From NCBI GenBank assembly GCA_030678995.1, contig JAUXTQ010000042.1, forward strand, positions 1-64,000: DNA of 64,000 bases, in the 5' to 3' direction. This document shows, in pieces, positions 9,521 through 62,405 of the stretch (the stretch's first letter is position 1; each line of letters begins with the position of its first letter). A program made the position numbers and the translations under genes. The DNA comes from Caulobacter sp. (lineage in GTDB: Bacteria > Pseudomonadota > Alphaproteobacteria > Caulobacterales > Caulobacteraceae). Below the pieces are notes generated by a model, which was given only the letters and a program-made list of their open reading frames with translations, made no database searches and was not told where the DNA came from.

Positions 9521-10684
9521 ATGAGCATCACTGGCCCCGCCATGGATTTCGGCCTCGGTGAAACCGCCGACGCCATCCGCGACACGACCGCCCGCTTCGC
9601 CGCCGACCGCATCGCCCCGATCGCGGCCGACATCGACCGCGACAACGAATTCCCTCGCGCGCTCTGGCCGCAGATGGGCGAGCTGGGCCTGCACGGCATC
9701 ACCGTCGAGGAGGAATTCGGCGGCCTGGGCCTGGGCTACCTCGAGCATGTGGTGGCCATGGAGGAGATCAGCCGCGCCTCCGCCTCGGTGGGCCTCAGCT
9801 ACGGCGCCCATTCGAACCTCTGCGTGAACCAGATCCGCCGCTGGGCCAGCCCCGAGCAGAAGCAGCGCCACCTGCCCAAACTGATCAGTGGCGAGCACGT
9901 CGGCGCCCTGGCCATGAGCGAGGCCGGTTCGGGCTCGGATGTGGTCTCGATGAAGCTGCGCGCCGACCGCCAGGGCGACCGGTTCGTGCTCAACGGGACC
10001 AAGTTCTGGATCACCAACGCCCCGCACGCCGACACCCTGGTGGTCTACGCCAAGTCGGCGCCGGAGGAGGGCAGCCGCGGCATCACCGCCTTCCTGATCG
10101 AGAAGGGCATGAAGGGGTTCAGCGTCAGCAAGAAGCTGGACAAGATGGGCATGCGCGGCTCGGACACCGCCGAGCTGGTGTTCGAGGACTGCGAGGTTCC
10201 CGAAGAGAACATCATGGGCCCGTTCAACGGCGGGGTTGGGGTGCTGATGAGCGGCCTCGATTACGAGCGCGCCGTGCTGGCCGCCGGACCGCTGGGCATC
10301 ATGCAGGCCTGTCTCGACGTGGTCCTGCCCTACGTCCGCGACCGCAAGCAGTTCGGCAAGGCGATCGGGTCGTTTCAGCTGATGCAGGGCAAGGTGGCGG
10401 ACATGTACGTCGCGTTGAACTCGGCCCGGGCCTACGTCTATGCGGTGGCGAGGGCCTGCGACGCCGGCAAGACCACCCGGTTCGACGCGGCCGGGGCGAT
10501 CCTGATGGCCAGTGAGAACGCCGTGAAGGTGGCCAACGAGGCTGTCCAGGCGTTGGGCGGGGCGGGGTATACCCGCGAATGGCCGGTCGAACGCTACGTC
10601 CGCGACGCCAAGCTCTACGACATCGGCGCCGGAACCAACGAGATCCGCCGGTTCCTGATCGGGCGAGAGCTGGTGGGGGGGTGA
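9521..10684 (+). CDS. ivd: Isovaleryl-CoA dehydrogenase (acyl-CoA dehydrogenase)
   Basis: This FAD flavoenzyme of about 387 residues oxidises isovaleryl-CoA to 3-methylcrotonyl-CoA in leucine degradation, passing electrons to ETF. Acyl-CoA dehydrogenase motifs are complete: [15 protein letters not shown], the flavin-contact segment [21 protein letters not shown] and the C-terminal [12 protein letters not shown]. The helix-G motif [13 protein letters not shown] holds the glutamate that is the catalytic base in isovaleryl-CoA dehydrogenases, which separates this enzyme from short-chain relatives. The start is set at ATG 9521; the earlier ATG at 9491 lies inside a repeat and ATG 9542 is also possible. 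The other leucine genes resume at 14960. Confidence 0.88.
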
Positions 10685-10695
10685 ACCCCCAAAGC

Positions 10696-10800
10696 CCGCT
10701 CATCCCGGCGAATGCCGGGACCCAGATCAAAGAGCGGTGCGGCTAACCATCAGAATTCGAGTTCTGCCATCTGGGTCCCGGCATTCGCCGGGATGAGCGG
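10696..10800. repeat. Long inverted-repeat element (CCGCTCATCC family)
   Basis: An arm of about 31 bases beginning CCGCTCATCCCGGCG (10696-10726) is inverted at 10770-10800, and each arm contains its own small palindrome (CCGGCGAATGCCGG). The two arms flank a central sequence of about 43 bases. It fills the gap between ivd and the DUF3574 gene and resembles the elements at 19427 and 62715. Confidence 0.85.
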
Positions 10801-10852
10801 AATTGAGAGGGCCACGCATTGACGTCGCCCGGCGCGTCGCGGAGGTTGCCGC

Positions 10853-11272
10853 ATGCGTTTCACTGCCGTCCCCGCCCTGAATCTGGCCCTGCTGCTCGGC
10901 GGCTGCATGAGCCTGGACGTGGACGTCGCCCAGCTCTGCACCGGCGGCCTCAAGCCGGTGACCACCGCCGAACTGTTCTTCGGCCGCAACATCGGCGACG
11001 CGCCCGGCGTCAGCGACGCCGACTGGCGGGCCTTCATCGACCAGGAGGTGACGCCGCGCTTTCCCGACGGCCTGACGGTGATCGACGCCGCCGGCCAGTG
11101 GCGCGGGCCCGGCGGGGCGGTGGTACGCGAGCCGTCAAAGGTGCTGCTGGTGGTGCTCAGCGGCGCGCCCGGCGAGCGGGACAGGCTCGACGCTATCCGC
11201 GCGGCCTACAAGGCCAGGTTCCGCCAGGACTCGGTGATGCTGCTCGAACGGCAAGGGTGCGCGGGGTTCTAG
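10853..11272 (+). CDS. DUF3574 family lipoprotein
   Basis: This 139-residue protein has a short N-terminal signal ending in lipobox LLLGGC (cysteine at about residue 18), so a lipid-anchored periplasmic location is expected. The DUF3574 pattern is easy to read: TTAELFFGRNIG, WRAFIDQEVTPRFPDGLTVIDAAGQWR, and REPSKVLLVVL. The biochemical role of the family is unknown. It is convergent with the mini-gene and DUF3617 gene on the other strand, and the hairpin at 11286-11315 probably ends transcription from both sides. Confidence 0.82.
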   Translation: MRFTAVPALNLALLLGGCMSLDVDVAQLCTGGLKPVTTAELFFGRNIGDAPGVSDADWRAFIDQEVTPRFPDGLTVIDAAGQWRGPGGAVVREPSKVLLVVLSGAPGERDRLDAIRAAYKARFRQDSVMLLERQGCAGF

Positions 11273-11285
11273 CCCCCGAAATGCA

Positions 11286-11315
11286 AAGGGCCGCCGGGTT
11301 GCCCCGACGGCCCTT
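11286..11315. terminator. Bidirectional terminator hairpin
   Basis: AAGGGCCG (11286-11293) pairs with CGGCCCTT (11308-11315), with further G-C pairing inside. It lies 14 bases after the DUF3574 stop and about 40 bases after the mini-gene stop on the other strand, so it can serve both. Confidence 0.65.
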
Positions 11316-11355
11316 CCATCGTCTGCCGCGATCGCGGCTCAACGCCAGGCGCTGA

Positions 11356-11427
11356 TCAGGCGCTGACCTCCGCCGAAACGGATTTCAGGGTCACGCACTG
11401 CGACCGCGGGTTCATACGATGAGACAC
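11356..11427 (-). CDS. Mini-gene encoding a 23-residue peptide
   Basis: A 23-codon frame starts at GTG 11427 and stops with TGA at 11356-11358. Its ribosome-binding site is exceptional: GAAAGGAGGTGATCC (11429-11443) is complementary to the full 3' tail of 16S rRNA as generally known, and the GGAGG core lies 7 bases from the GTG, which is the ideal spacing. The peptide begins MSHRMNPRSQC, contains one cysteine, no hydrophobic segment, and ends in SAEVSA; an internal ATG is codon 5. A hairpin terminator follows at 11286-11315. A weak promoter (TTGGCG, 17 bases, ACATAG) may lie upstream. No family is recognised. It could be a leader peptide, a small protein, or part of a regulatory RNA. Confidence 0.6.
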   Translation of the reverse strand: MSHRMNPRSQCVTLKSVSAEVSA

Positions 11428-11428
11428 C

Positions 11429-11443
11429 GGATCACCTCCTTTC
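11429..11443 (-). promoter_or_regulatory. Extended Shine-Dalgarno of the mini-gene
   Basis: The reverse strand reads GAAAGGAGGTGATCC, a 15-base perfect complement to the standard 16S rRNA 3' end. Most genes here show only 4-6 matching bases, so this is an outlier. Read on the + strand the same bases mimic the anti-Shine-Dalgarno sequence. Confidence 0.75.
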
Positions 11444-11523
11444 AGCTGTTGAAACAGGACTCACACTATGTGGGGCGGATTAACGAGTCGCCAACCCTGC
11501 TCGCGCGGGGCGCGACAAAATGC

Positions 11524-12063: not shown

Positions 12064-12843
12064 ATGGACATGCCGAGCTGGGATCCCGCCGTCTACGAGC
12101 GCTACAAGGCCTACCGCGACCGGCCGGCCCTCGACCTGATGGTGCAGATCCCTGACCGCCGTTTCCGCGAGATCTGGGACCTGGGCTGCGGAACGGGCGA
12201 ACACGCCGCCCTGCTGGCCCTGCGCCACCCGGGCGCCCGGGTGCACGGCCTCGATTCCAGCCCCGACATGCTGCGCCAGGCCAAAAGCCGCCAGAGTGAC
12301 GTCGACTGGGTGCTGGCGGGCGTCGAGGACTTCGCGCCGCAGACGCCGCCGGACCTGATCTTCACCAATGCCGCCCTGCAGTGGCTGCCGGACCACGCGG
12401 CCCTGTTTCCGCGTCTCGCCGGGCTGCTGGCGCCAGGCGGGGTGTTCGCCTGCCAGATGCCGATGGCCTATGAGACCGGGCACCATCGCATTCTGCGCGA
12501 GACGGCCCAGGAGGGCGCCTGGGCGTCCCTGACCCGCGACGCGCGGCGGATCAATCCGACTCCGCCGCTGGCCGACTACCACGGCTGGCTGTCGGCGGTC
12601 TGCGGCGAGGTGGACATCTGGACCACCACCTACCTGCACGCCCTGGACGGCGAGGACCCGGTGGTCGAATGGATGCGCGGCACGGCGCTACGGCCCTATC
12701 TCGACGTGCTGGAGGGCGATCCGGAGCTGCTGGAGGCCTTCCTGGCCGAGTTCCGCGCCCGCATCGCCACGGCCTTCCCGCCGGGCGCGGACGGGGTGAC
12801 CCTGTTTCCCTTCCCGCGCCTGTTCATGGTGGCCGTGCGCTGA
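12064..12843 (+). CDS. tam: Trans-aconitate 2-methyltransferase family protein
   Basis: This 259-residue SAM-dependent methyltransferase probably methylates trans-aconitate or a similar tricarboxylate. The SAM-binding motif DLGCGTGEH occurs at about residues 39-47 and is followed by HGLDSSPDML. Tam-specific features include the N-terminal WDPAVYERYKAYRDRPALDL, FTNAALQWLPDH in the middle, and the C-terminal VVEWMRGTALRPYLD and FPFPRLFMVA segments. Length matches the family. It stands alone, followed by a palindromic repeat. The exact substrate is inferred from the family. Confidence 0.85.
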   Translation: MDMPSWDPAVYERYKAYRDRPALDLMVQIPDRRFREIWDLGCGTGEHAALLALRHPGARVHGLDSSPDMLRQAKSRQSDVDWVLAGVEDFAPQTPPDLIFTNAALQWLPDHAALFPRLAGLLAPGGVFACQMPMAYETGHHRILRETAQEGAWASLTRDARRINPTPPLADYHGWLSAVCGEVDIWTTTYLHALDGEDPVVEWMRGTALRPYLDVLEGDPELLEAFLAEFRARIATAFPPGADGVTLFPFPRLFMVAVR

Positions 12844-12966
12844 TCCTCCCCATCGGGGGAGGTGGCGCTGCGAAGCAGCGACGGAGGGGGTCGCCCAGGA
12901 CGGCGCCGAAATCTGAGCGGACCCCCTCAGTCGGCTTCGCCGACAGCTCCCCCGATGGGGAGCATC
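12844..12966. repeat. CTCCCC/GGGGAG palindromic cluster
   Basis: This intergenic element between convergent genes carries CTCCCCATCGGGGGAG at its left end and the matching CTCCCCCGATGGGGAG at its right end, with smaller stems (CTGCGAAGCAG, GGCTTCGCC) between. The same architecture recurs at 49389-49502 and, more diverged, at 36472-36646. Confidence 0.85.
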
Positions 12967-30998: not shown

Positions 30999-33317
30999 CT
31001 ACTCCGCGAGCGCGGGTTCCTCGATCTCCGGCTCGCCCGGTTGCCGGGGCTTCTCGTCGACCGCGAACTCGAAGGCGATCTTGCCGTCCTTGAGCACTAC
31101 CTTGACGTGACCACCCTTGGCGAGCTTGCCGAACAGGATGTCGTCGGCCAGCGGCTTCTTGATGTGCTCCTGGATGACCCGGGCCAGCGGCCGCGCGCCG
31201 TAGAGCTCGTCGAAGCCGTTCTTGGCCAGCCAGTCGGCCGCTTCGTCGCTGGTTTCGATGGTCACGTTGCGGTCGGCCAGCTGGGCTTCCAGCTGCAGGA
31301 CAAACTTCTGCACCACCTGGCGGATGATGTCCTGGGTCAGCGGCTTGAAGGCCACCACCGCGTCCAGGCGGTTGCGGAACTCCGGCGTGAAGATGCGCTT
31401 GATCGCCTCCTCAGACTCGCCGTCCGCCTTGCCGCGGCCGAAGCCGATGGTCTGGCGCTGGGAGTCGGCCGCGCCAGCGTTGGTGGTCATGATCAGGACC
31501 ACGTTGCGGAAGTCGACCTTCTTGCCATTGGAGTCGGTCAGCTGGCCGTGGTCCATGACCTGCAGCAGGATGTTGTAGACGTCGGCGTGGGCCTTCTCGA
31601 TCTCGTCCAGCAGCACCACGGCATGCGGGTGCTGATCGACGGCGTCGGTCAGCTGGCCGCCCTGGTCATAGCCGACATAGCCCGGAGGGGCGCCGATCAG
31701 GCGGCTGACCGTGTGGCGCTCCATGTACTCGCTCATGTCGAAGCGCAGTAGTTCGATGCCCAGGGTCGAGGCCAGCTGGCGGGCGGCTTCGGTCTTGCCC
31801 ACGCCGGTCGGGCCGCTGAACAGGTAGCAGCCTATCGGCTTCTGCGGGTCGCGCAGGCCGGCCCGGGCCATCTTCATGGCGCTGGACAGCTGCACGATCG
31901 CCTCGGGCTGGCCGAAGACCGTGCGCTGCAGGTCGTTCTCCAGTTCCTTGAGGGCCTCGGTGTCGGACTTGCTGACCGATTTTGGCGGGATGCGGGCGAT
32001 CTTGGCGACCACGGCCTCGATCTCCTTGACGCCGATGACCTTCTTGCGCTTGCCCTCGGGCAGCAGCATCTGGCCGGCGCCCGCCTCGTCGATCACGTCG
32101 ATCGCCTTGTCCGGCAGCTTGCGGTCGGTGATGTACTTGGCCGACAGGTCCACCGCCGCCTTGAGGGCGTCGTTGGTGTATTTCAGTTTGTGAAATTCCT
32201 CGTAGTAGATCTTGAGTCCCTTGAGGATTTTCAGGGTGTCCTCGATCGTCGGCTCGTTGACGTCGATCTTCTGGAACCGGCGCACCAGGGCGCGGTCCTT
32301 CTCGAAATGCTGGCGGAATTCCTTGTAGGTGGTCGAGCCCATGCACCGCAGGGTGCCGCTGGCCAGGGCCGGCTTGAGCAGGTTGGAGGCGTCCATCGCC
32401 CCGCCTGACGTAGCGCCGGCGCCGATCACGGTGTGGATCTCGTCGATGAACAGGATGGCGTTTGGGTGGTTCTCCAGCTCCTTGACGACCTGCTTGACCC
32501 GCTCCTCGAAGTCGCCGCGATAGCGGGTTCCGGCCAGCAGGGCGCCCATGTCGAGGGCGAAGATGGTCGCGCCCTCCAGCACTTCGGGCACCTGATGGCG
32601 GACGATCTTCAGCGCCAGGCCCTCGGCGATGGCCGTCTTGCCCACGCCCGGGTCGCCGACCAGCAGCGGGTTGTTCTTGGTCCGCCGGCAGAGGATCTGG
32701 ATGCAGCGTTCGACCTCGGCGGTCCGGCCGATCAGCGGATCGATCTTGCCCTGTCTCGACTTCTCGTTGAGGTCGACACAGTAGGCCTCGAGGGCCTCGC
32801 CGCCGGTCTTCACCGTGGCCTTTTCCTCGTCGCCGTCGGTGCTGGCGCCCTTGGCCACCTTGGGCTCGGAGGCCCCGGCCTTCTTGGCGATGCCGTGGGC
32901 GATGAAGTTCACCGCGTCGTACCGCGTCATGTCCTGCTCCTGCAGGAAGTAGGCGGCGTGGCTTTCGCGCTCGGAGAAGACCGCGACCAGCACATTGGCC
33001 CCGGTCACCTCGTCTCGGCCCGAGGACTGCACATGGATCACGGCGCGCTGGATCACCCGCTGGAAGCCGGCGGTCGGCTTGGCGTCCTCGCCGTCCTCGA
33101 CGATCAGGCTACGCAGCTCAGTGTCGAGGTAGTTTATCAGGGTCTTCTTGAGCGCGGCGAGATCGACGTCGCAGGCGCCCATCACACCTGCGGCGTCCTC
33201 GTCGTCGGTGAGGGACAGGAGCAGATGCTCCAGGGTCGCATACTCGTGCTTTCGCTGGTTCGCGTAAGCGACGGCGCGGTGGAGGGTCTCTTCAAGATTG
33301 CGCGAAAACGAGGGCAA
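30999..33317 (-). CDS. clpA: ATP-dependent Clp protease ATP-binding subunit ClpA
   Basis: This 772-residue AAA+ unfoldase feeds substrates to the ClpP peptidase. The N-domain (residues 1-140, [31 protein letters not shown]) binds ClpS. D1 has Walker [14 protein letters not shown] and Walker [17 protein letters not shown]2 has Walker [14 protein letters not shown] and [12 protein letters not shown] ClpP-binding loop with IGF is present (QTIGFGRG). There is no ClpB-type middle domain, which fixes the identity. It follows clpS by 10 bases in one operon, so adaptor and unfoldase are co-expressed. Confidence 0.96.
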
Positions 33318-44870: not shown

Positions 44871-46955
44871 CTAACTAGTGATGATCTGATCAACAACGAT
44901 CTTCATTCCTGCGGGCTTGAACCCCGCATCACTCATTCGGGCGATAGTCAGATTTCTGAGAACTTCATATGACGCCTTGCAATTGGTCTTTGCGAACGCC
45001 TTCAGGACATCGCGTCCGCGAAAGGTGCGCCGCCACGCATCGGTAGCCAGGTCAGCTTCGAGTTTTGATCGAAGAGAACTTTCCCTTCCGACTAATATTG
45101 CGTCGGTCAACTTGTCATTTGAAGCGGCTTCCAGTTGAGAAAATGATCTCGCCATCGCCTCGCCAATGGCCTTTGCAACGTCGTTCCGCTTAGGGTCGAA
45201 GCTCAAATTGAGCGATGAAATAATTTCATTGTTTACGTATTCGGTAAGCTCGTGTCGAATCAATCCTTTAAGAGTCGACGATGCGGCTTTCCGCAACTTG
45301 TCATATATTTTCTCGGTAGTCATAGTCGTCGAAATATCCCCCAGTTCTAGCAAAACGATCTTGATAAATTCCGCTTCCAAGAGATAGTTTTCTACGTGAT
45401 ATACATCCCACTTGAATCGTGGTGACGTGACATACTCGTTCTTCTCGCTATCCTGATCTGTAATTGAATAAGTACGGAAGGGTATGGATCCGAGTTTTTG
45501 CGCGGCGTCTAACACGTCATGCAGTTCTCGGACCCTTAGTTTATTTCCGCCGGAAATTACGTTTACCTGCTCGGAGAGTTCTGGAAATAGTCGGGTCGTA
45601 AACTGAACATCAAATTCAGAATCCCCACCACCCTCGAATATAACAACCTTCTTTCCGGGGCGATATGCGGCGATGTCACCAACGAGGCTGATAAGTGCAC
45701 GCTGGGCAGCTTCGCCCATTGTAATAGGTACTATTTGCGGCGTCGATTTATCGAGAGATGCGCCGACCATATGGTAGACCGAATATTCGGGGCGGCCGAC
45801 AACTTCTCGGAGCAAAGTATCGGAGTGAGTCACCAGCCAGATTTGGTTATCGAGGGCAACGCCCAAGTGTTGGTGATAAAATTGAGGAAGCCCTCGAACT
45901 AGCCGTGGATTTAGATGTAGTTCCGGTTCGTCAATCAAAATTATAGAGTAGCAGGGTGCGGAATTTCTTATACGAAGATATCCATACAAGACCTCCTTTT
46001 CTCCGGCACTAAGTTCATTCAAGTCGTGTATGGCACCGGAAGACGTGCGAACTGGAAAGGACAGGCCGCCATCTATCGTGGGTTTTAGTCCAAGAAATTC
46101 CTTATCGGGAAAGAACGTTGAAAAGAGTTCCTTAAGCGTCTTCGTTATAGTGTTCTGACTATCAAAATCCACGCCTGCCTCTTTGGCGAGGAGTTCTTTT
46201 ATAAACGAACTCGCCATTTCGGTCTTCACGCTGCCGTACTTATTGCTATAGTTATACAGCGCGTGGTTCTTGTTTTGCTGAGTTTGAGCGGTTAGATCAA
46301 GATTTACATTTGAGACTTGTTCTCGCGTGTACATGCGTTGCGCGCCATGATAGTCGATCAGGCCAAGTCGTCCTGGAAAAAAGCTACTGAATATTATTTC
46401 GAGGGCCTTTGAAGGGGAAAAATGAATAGCCGATCCTGAGTTCCCCCATAGATGACCCGTTACCGTGTCTTGGCTTAACTCGCTGAGCATTGCAGCAAGC
46501 TGCGTCCTCGTAAGCGCGGCGACTTCAGGTTCACGGTCTCTGTACTGTGCCGCCATTGGTGCCGCACGATCAGATGACCAGCCGTACATTTCCGGAGCTA
46601 TGAGCCGCCATATCGAGTTTCTGACAAGTTCTTCGCCGTTCTGTTCGAGGTATTCGCGCTCCTTCGGGTGAAGTCGAAATATGCACTTGATCGACAGCGG
46701 CTTCGATTGATCTTGAAAGAATGTCCGGAAGGCCTCGGCATTGTTCGCAAAGTTTATTTGAAACTCTGCCATCCAATGGTGCCACTCGTTTTGCTGATAG
46801 CCGCCATATGCAGATTTCAAAAGGCGAATAGCGTCAAAAATACATGACTTCCCTGAGCCGTTTGCGCCGGCGATGACGATGGTGCTCTGAAGGTCTCTGA
46901 GAGAAAGCTCTCTGATCCCTCTGAAGTTCTTGACTTCGATTTCGTCTATGCGCAC
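44871..46955 (-). CDS. OLD-like ATPase with C-terminal TOPRIM-type domain
   Basis: This 694-residue protein has an SMC/RecF-like ATPase head: RIDEIEVKNFRGIRELSLRDLQSTIVIAGANGSGKS with Walker A GANGSGKS (about residues 33-40), an ABC-type signature LSAGEKEVL, and Walker B SIILIDEPELHLNP. The D-loop-His switch is WLVTHSD. After it comes a TOPRIM-like domain: VVIFEGGGDSEFD and, about 70 residues later, ITDQDSE, giving the E...DxD metal pattern of OLD-family nucleases. Its bases and codons are markedly AT-rich compared with all neighbours, a sign of recent transfer. No UvrD helicase partner (as in Gabija) is adjacent. GTG 46955 has AGGAGG 7 bases upstream. Confidence 0.85.
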   Translation of the reverse strand: MRIDEIEVKNFRGIRELSLRDLQSTIVIAGANGSGKSCIFDAIRLLKSAYGGYQQNEWHHWMAEFQINFANNAEAFRTFFQDQSKPLSIKCIFRLHPKEREYLEQNGEELVRNSIWRLIAPEMYGWSSDRAAPMAAQYRDREPEVAALTRTQLAAMLSELSQDTVTGHLWGNSGSAIHFSPSKALEIIFSSFFPGRLGLIDYHGAQRMYTREQVSNVNLDLTAQTQQNKNHALYNYSNKYGSVKTEMASSFIKELLAKEAGVDFDSQNTITKTLKELFSTFFPDKEFLGLKPTIDGGLSFPVRTSSGAIHDLNELSAGEKEVLYGYLRIRNSAPCYSIILIDEPELHLNPRLVRGLPQFYHQHLGVALDNQIWLVTHSDTLLREVVGRPEYSVYHMVGASLDKSTPQIVPITMGEAAQRALISLVGDIAAYRPGKKVVIFEGGGDSEFDVQFTTRLFPELSEQVNVISGGNKLRVRELHDVLDAAQKLGSIPFRTYSITDQDSEKNEYVTSPRFKWDVYHVENYLLEAEFIKIVLLELGDISTTMTTEKIYDKLRKAASSTLKGLIRHELTEYVNNEIISSLNLSFDPKRNDVAKAIGEAMARSFSQLEAASNDKLTDAILVGRESSLRSKLEADLATDAWRRTFRGRDVLKAFAKTNCKASYEVLRNLTIARMSDAGFKPAGMKIVVDQIITS

Positions 46956-62323: not shown

Positions 62324-62405
62324 GGTCGTCTCTTAATGCGCCGAACGGCTTGCAAACAGGGCCTTCCGGCGGCTAACCCCCACTCTCGAAACAAAGGAGG
62401 CCACG

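Follow-up and report, generated by a model that had tools for sequence, protein, structure and literature searches.

A CC2171-family RNA in a Caulobacter sp. contig combines a long complement of the 16S rRNA tail with a short open reading frame of conserved length

The locus described here lies on the minus strand of contig JAUXTQ010000042.1 of a Caulobacter sp. (assembly GCA_030678995.1), of which positions 1 to 64,000 were analyzed (the window). A DUF3617 gene stands upstream on the same strand. Rfam model RF01867 (CC2171) matches positions 11451-11287 (90.3 bits; E value, 2.9e-19; full model, 1-159), above the family's gathering score of 75 bits, and on this match the element belongs to a known RNA family filed as an sRNA, which the sequence-only reading of this DNA had overlooked. 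The family's naming reportedly goes back to Landt in 2008. The features of the locus are as follows.

11287 to 11462, minus strand: CC2171-family RNA (RF01867 match, 11451-11287; 5' end placed near 11462 from the promoter-like sequence).
11466 to 11494, minus strand: putative promoter-like sequence, TTGGCG (11494-11489), 17 nt, ACATAG (11471-11466), as read from the sequence.
11446 to 11451, minus strand: CAACAG directly 5' of the Shine-Dalgarno sequence (SD); by eye, a CAAC-like stretch recurs in many relatives.
11429 to 11443, minus strand: GAAAGGAGGTGATCC, an exact match to the complement of the 16S rRNA 3' end.
11356 to 11427, minus strand: GTG-started 23-codon frame with TGA stop, MSHRMNPRSQCVTLKSVSAEVSA, from the open reading frame and comparison.
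11416 to 11421, minus strand: CATCGT (codons 3-4), 5' arm of a long-range helix predicted from the Rfam structure line and alignment.
11317 to 11322, minus strand: ACGATG, directly before the terminator hairpin, 3' arm of the same helix, predicted likewise.
11285 to 11315, minus strand: terminator-like hairpin and short T-run, from the fold, with pairs changed on both sides in the alignment.

A sigma-70 promoter scan of the locus reported no promoter. Two GANTC sites lie on the minus strand near the promoter-like sequence, GACTC (11489-11485) overlapping the -35-like hexamer at its end and, past the -10-like one, GAGTC (11462-11458); such sites are not retained in all relatives, and GAGTC there recurs in some only. 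The RNA folds with a predicted minimum free energy of -88.3 kcal/mol (z, -3.70). The hairpin terminator claimed in the sequence-only reading held up in part: a strong hairpin followed by CCCTTTGCATT lies 3' of the frame, but a stricter T-run scan lists no terminator there. That reading was right that no downstream gene uses the frame as a leader, the next gene in the window, DUF3574 (10853-11272, plus), being convergent; a leader of a downstream gene, or a leader-peptide attenuator, was rejected for the window on this layout. Two inverted repeats were seen elsewhere in the window. The first (10681-10815; 47 nt, arms 85% complementary, 41 nt between them, containing ATCTGGGTCCCGGCATTCGCCGGGATGA) lies directly behind an acyl-CoA dehydrogenase gene and looks like a palindromic repeat element; the second (12842-12966; 26 nt, 88% complementary, with CCCCATCGGGGGAG) lies behind a methyltransferase gene.

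The perfect 15-base SD and the 23-codon frame described beforehand were both found as claimed, with 7 nt between GGAGG and GTG. GAAAGGAGGTGATCC is complementary over 15 nt to the 16S 3' end of relatives (the own assembly was searched for a 16S end and none was found), and AAAGGAGGTGATCC occurs once in the own assembly, at this RNA. The window holds two further matches to GAAAGGAGGTGATCC, both with 3 mismatches, and shuffled sequences average 1.5 matches at ≤3 mismatches. Other likely starts in the window match 8 to 9 nt of the tail, which agrees with the earlier statement that this match is the longest: at 45999 (minus) the match is 9 nt and is followed by the TTG of a 372-codon frame, or alternatively by an ATG whose frame has 5 codons, and at 62393 (plus) it is 8 nt, before a 95-codon frame starting with ATG. 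Among 524 candidate starts the best other match was 11 nt at 33057 (minus), within a 680-codon frame and lacking GGAGG.

The exact 14-mer GAAAGGAGGTGATC occurred 25 times, in 16 of 21 related genomes. Sorted by script, all 25 were explained, 13 as 16S gene ends (where the tail reads GGCTGGATCACCTCCTTTC) and 12 as this RNA, with frames of 20 to 26 codons. The identity of the 15-mer to the 16S-end complement is what a chance match, or a fragment of a 16S gene, would have in its favor; the window match does not extend into 16S sequence, however, and many diverged loci keep the block before [AG]TGTC and a short frame. Such an origin is vanishingly improbable and was rejected on the conservation of frame and block in relatives.

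The tail match was followed through 71 family loci (70 from the best Rfam matches, plus the window), all of which fit the block pattern used. The exact 15-mer is kept in 39/71; GATCCA precedes the G of GTG in 36/71, giving 17 matching bases, and GATCCG in 3/71, the window included. Changes that would leave G-U pairs account for 9/71, and in 23/71 pairing beyond GGTGA is broken (GACCA, 18; GACCC, 5). One rhizobial branch has AAGGAAGG in place of AAAGGAGG. A long match is therefore the rule, and a complete match is not obligatory. These counts bear on the proposal that the over-tight SD parks small subunits and so lowers initiation elsewhere. The long tail complement would suit such a 30S titrator, as would the inhibition by extended SDs that Komarova 2002 (cited in PMC10931766) announces in its title, but an RNA that did nothing except titrate would not require its frame length to be maintained, and the match is shortened or altered in 32/71 loci; we rate this explanation as very unlikely.

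RF01867 matched 247/299 genomes of the own family (putatively Caulobacteraceae), with 178 above the cut-off, and among the matches listed most of these genomes carry one. The pattern GAAAGGAGGTGATCCNRTGTC with ≤2 mismatches was found in 101/385 genomes of the class (reversed control, 1), and a related pattern with ≤3 mismatches in 87/121 genomes of the family of G906 (putatively Rhizobiaceae), both counts being of pattern matches. From the former scan, 30 loci were fetched, of which 22 have frames of 14 to 30 codons and 7 exceed that range; L116, at 84 codons, is a poor candidate, and L117 is without the GGAGGT core. From the latter, 29/30 fetched loci have frames of 14 to 30 codons, the exception being L328. 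A looser pattern was found in 70/385 class genomes (reversed control, 2). A scan of named genomes gave at least 119 stretches, and 80 titles among the matches listed are Alphaproteobacteria or, in 3 cases, "Proteobacteria bacterium"; the RF01867 model scored above its cut-off in 4/16 named loci tried. The labels Caulobacteraceae, Rhizobiaceae, and Alphaproteobacteria were derived from named loci with like peptides and from the Rfam control.

Outside the class, a scan of 299 genomes gave 18 genomes with a match, all with two mismatches (reversed-control matches in 5/299). Seven of the 18 were fetched: L296 and L297 share the layout, L301 to L304, from elsewhere in the phylum, have strong 12-nt SDs before an ordinary gene, which we take to be oxidoreductase-like from a motif, and L305 has neither. 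In the class of G691, presumably Gammaproteobacteria, 3/274 genomes carry TAAGGAGGTGATC, a version that begins with TAA instead of GAAA; ATGTC and a short frame come next (18, 22, and 11 codons), and hairpins with T-runs were seen by eye behind these frames. On this sequence evidence, the RNA is class-wide and mostly single copy, with a full or near-full 16S-tail complement and an open frame of 14 to 30 codons. A gene that we take to be YaiI/YqxD-like, from its VDADxCPV motif, neighbors the RNA in 10/247 loci, two of them in opposite orientation.

L099, L154, L156, L167, L202, L073, L103, L190, L206, L259: loci with the YaiI/YqxD-like neighbor, L073 and L103 being the same place.

Frame length is 20 to 23 codons in 70/71 family loci; L029 has an early stop at 13 codons, and L053, counted among the 70, has a compensated +1/-1 shift. 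The loss of the frame in relatives that had been named beforehand as counterevidence did not appear in this comparison. Grouping of 239 loci gave 92 clusters (<75% identity between clusters), and the frame-0 stop falls at 14 to 30 codons in 87/92 and later in 5, compared with 20/92 each in that range for frames +1 and +2 and 26% for shuffles. This difference is strong evidence, from sequence comparison, that the micro-ORF is read. A random frame would not stay at 14 to 30 codons in 87/92 clusters, which argues against a classical trans-acting sRNA whose frame is incidental or merely protects the RNA. That explanation, which we consider decidedly unlikely, has on its side the stable fold, the stand-alone layout, and the filing of the family as an sRNA by both Rfam and a study of Mesorhizobium (PMC5596092).

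The selection acting on the frame was compared with that on the neighboring acyl-CoA dehydrogenase gene in 15 genome pairs (two other neighboring genes served as calibrators with only 2 and 1 pairs). The micro-ORF had a pS of 0.118 and a pN of 0.084, versus 0.334 and 0.037 in the neighbor, i.e., about three times less synonymous and about twice as much nonsynonymous change. Third codon positions were no freer than first and second ones, and codons 1 to 3 (GTG TCT CAT) were invariant in 59 distinct frames. The constraint, as seen in these comparisons, is mostly on the RNA level. Because synonymous sites are constrained and the body of the peptide differs between orders, selection probably acts mainly on something other than the peptide. 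A plain peptide gene was rejected as the sole explanation, on the third positions and on the synonymous sites, which are more constrained than those of the neighbor. A Pfam search with one family peptide gave no match.

These data leave a micro-mRNA, in which the long SD simply drives high output of the actual product, the 14- to 30-residue peptide, as an unlikely explanation with a chance well above negligible. It would account for the class-wide maintenance of frame length, for peptides that can be recognized inside an order (MSHGSA.. in Sphingomonas and its kin, for instance, or MSxxKRCHLAGIAR in Bradyrhizobium), and for a TW motif recurring in several orders. Sinorhizobium meliloti SEP1 (23 amino acids; pI, 4.18), described as having the top translation efficiency of 54 new small ORFs (PMC10117765), may be a homologue: the rhizobial peptide of L287 resembles it in size and pI (23 amino acids; pI, 4.41), and of the 29 short frames fetched for the family of G906, 20 encode peptides with a pI of <6. 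Set against the micro-mRNA are third positions that are not freer and a pN/pS of 0.71 in the 15 pairs (0.55 in 22 pairs, L029 and L053 left out) versus 0.11 for the neighbor, a ratio that is also raised by the low pS resulting from RNA constraint. The recurring "QP" or "QS" residues also weigh against it, since they coincide with the codons of a CAGY RNA hairpin loop. This in-frame hairpin near the stop (≥5 bp) was found in 44/66 distinct MS(S/N/D) frames, many of them rhizobial, with 32 different stems; because the scan selected hairpins of ≥5 bp first, the native value is fixed by construction, and 22/66 frames are without such a hairpin. The "stand-alone highly translated peptide" of the sequence-only reading thus survives as a stand-alone translated frame, kept open and short across the class, but only in part as a highly translated peptide, since its synonymous sites are more constrained than the neighbor's and its body varies.

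Some frames deserve description in their own right. In Bradyrhizobium-type loci (L183, L187, L209, L229, and L291), in which the frame encodes MSxxKRCHLAGIAR, the codons TGT CAC CTC form UCACCUC, an anti-Shine-Dalgarno inside the frame with which the SD of the same RNA could pair. L204 (Azospirillum sp. B21), L075, and L078 have a 56- to 59-codon frame with a signal-peptide-like start, as if the micro-ORF grew into a secreted protein. L035 is a family copy in which additional sequence resembling an inverted repeat lies downstream of the stop codon and ahead of the 3' element.

A long-range helix is predicted between CATNGTC (codons 3-5) and GACNATG just before the terminator (CAUNGUC and GACNAUG in RF01867), and 6/7 of its pairs are able to form in the window. 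Position N covaries clearly (U-G, 12; U-A, 11; A-U, 6; C-G, 3; no break in 32), 97.3% of alignment cells are paired, and the covariation score is 0.194, versus 0.085 in shuffles. The other pairs are nearly invariant, and two of five helix measures were no better than shuffles: pairs changed on both sides (1) were matched by 393/500 shuffles, and further pair types (4) by 328/500. The helix is a prediction in which a single pair covaries clearly. The start region of other orders is likewise predicted to pair with the pre-terminator element, through different sequence, as in Sphingomonas and kin, where CAUGGuUCAGC pairs with GCUGACCAUG (by eye). Duplexes of the start region with the 3' element averaged -15.8 kcal/mol for native partners versus -13.4 kcal/mol for swapped ones (0/2000 permutations; 202 of 247 loci kept, with 158 distinct peptides), although related sequences were included, which inflate such tests; the native partner's median rank was 0.29. 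Ensemble folding of 154 loci gave a mean probability of being unpaired at +1 to +15 of 0.43 whether or not the 3' element was included, and 15% of these loci were clearly more closed with it. The predicted folds lend no support to a start that is closed by this element.

Taken from the sequence and its comparison, the tail match, short frame, RNA-level constraint, stand-alone layout, and spread lead us to favor, at a probability just short of even, an ORF-bearing regulatory RNA that is driven by translation and loaded by long pairing with the 16S tail, and in which translation matters more than the peptide. A very long SD, a frame that is kept short and has predicted structure at both ends, and the absence of a following gene in the window together suggest that translation is the working act. 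Small subunits would be recruited through the long tail match, and ribosomes would bind and translate the short frame in this organism, their passage over it counting for more than the peptide made. Translation may then open the helix between codons 3 to 5 and the pre-terminator element, and the output would lie either in the RNA as such, by way of how stable it is or what it pairs with, or in the 30S subunits that it occupies.

A bolder variant, which we regard as a long shot, makes the RNA a gauge of the 16S tail, i.e., a ribosome-sensing riboregulator conserved across the class and also carried by a few members of a second one. Because the RNA matches far more free tail than any other start, it would be loaded well only by 30S subunits whose tail is complete and unoccupied; its translation would report the state of the ribosome pool and switch its structure, and the copies in the second class would be adapted to that lineage's own 16S tail.

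Whichever reading applies, an RNA filed as a Caulobacter sRNA has class-wide relatives that share a long 16S-tail complement and a tiny frame whose length is kept while its sequence drifts, and it may be a sensor of, or a load on, the ribosome pool. In Caulobacter crescentus, 24.6% of genes are given as having an SD (PMC4117421); with so few in the group, a gene with an over-long SD offers a clean handle on what such an SD is for. A caution follows as well: what is taken for a "conserved small protein" may in some cases be a shadow cast by RNA structure.

Published accounts of the family place the RNA as follows. Rfam 15 names CC2171 and adds one covarying pair (PMC11701678), and in Mesorhizobium huakuii CC2171 is reported as MH_s33, a 215-nt transcript sequenced by RNA-seq (PMC5596092). 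Schrader et al. 2014 (PMC4117421) describe the intergenic noncoding RNA regions of C. crescentus as not translated, with two exceptions, which weighs against the translation-driven reading favored here. Among the matches listed in the open-access literature, no paper on the CC2171 frame or tail match was found, and papers containing the DNA string of the block probably have it as a 16S primer. The window element agrees with RF01867 in exceeding the family cut-off over the full model. It differs from the Rfam label, that of a Caulobacter sRNA, in its short conserved frame behind a 16S-tail complement and in having relatives across the class, presence in Mesorhizobium being already in print (PMC5596092).

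Among known systems, rpsU of Flavobacterium has an extended SD that, according to PMC10931766, is usable by only some ribosomes; its match to the 16S tail is likewise much longer than usual and is an exception in its genome. The rpsU frame, however, encodes bS21 and is read by ribosomes lacking bS21, whereas frames here have 14 to 30 codons and a peptide unrelated to bS21; a bS21-gated extended-SD mRNA was rejected because the window frame encodes a 23-residue peptide, not bS21. The dual-function sRNA rnTrpL/peTrpL of S. meliloti is also a short RNA with a tiny frame but is described as leaderless and a tryptophan attenuator (PMC10117765), unlike the present RNA, with its very long SD and no same-strand gene behind it in the window. 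In Staphylococcus aureus, extended start-proximal SD helices (PMC13009471) share the pairing that runs from the core SD toward the start codon; they are estimated to occur there at about 30% of initiation sites, whereas in the 21 genomes related to the present one the 14-mer was seen at a single gene other than 16S.
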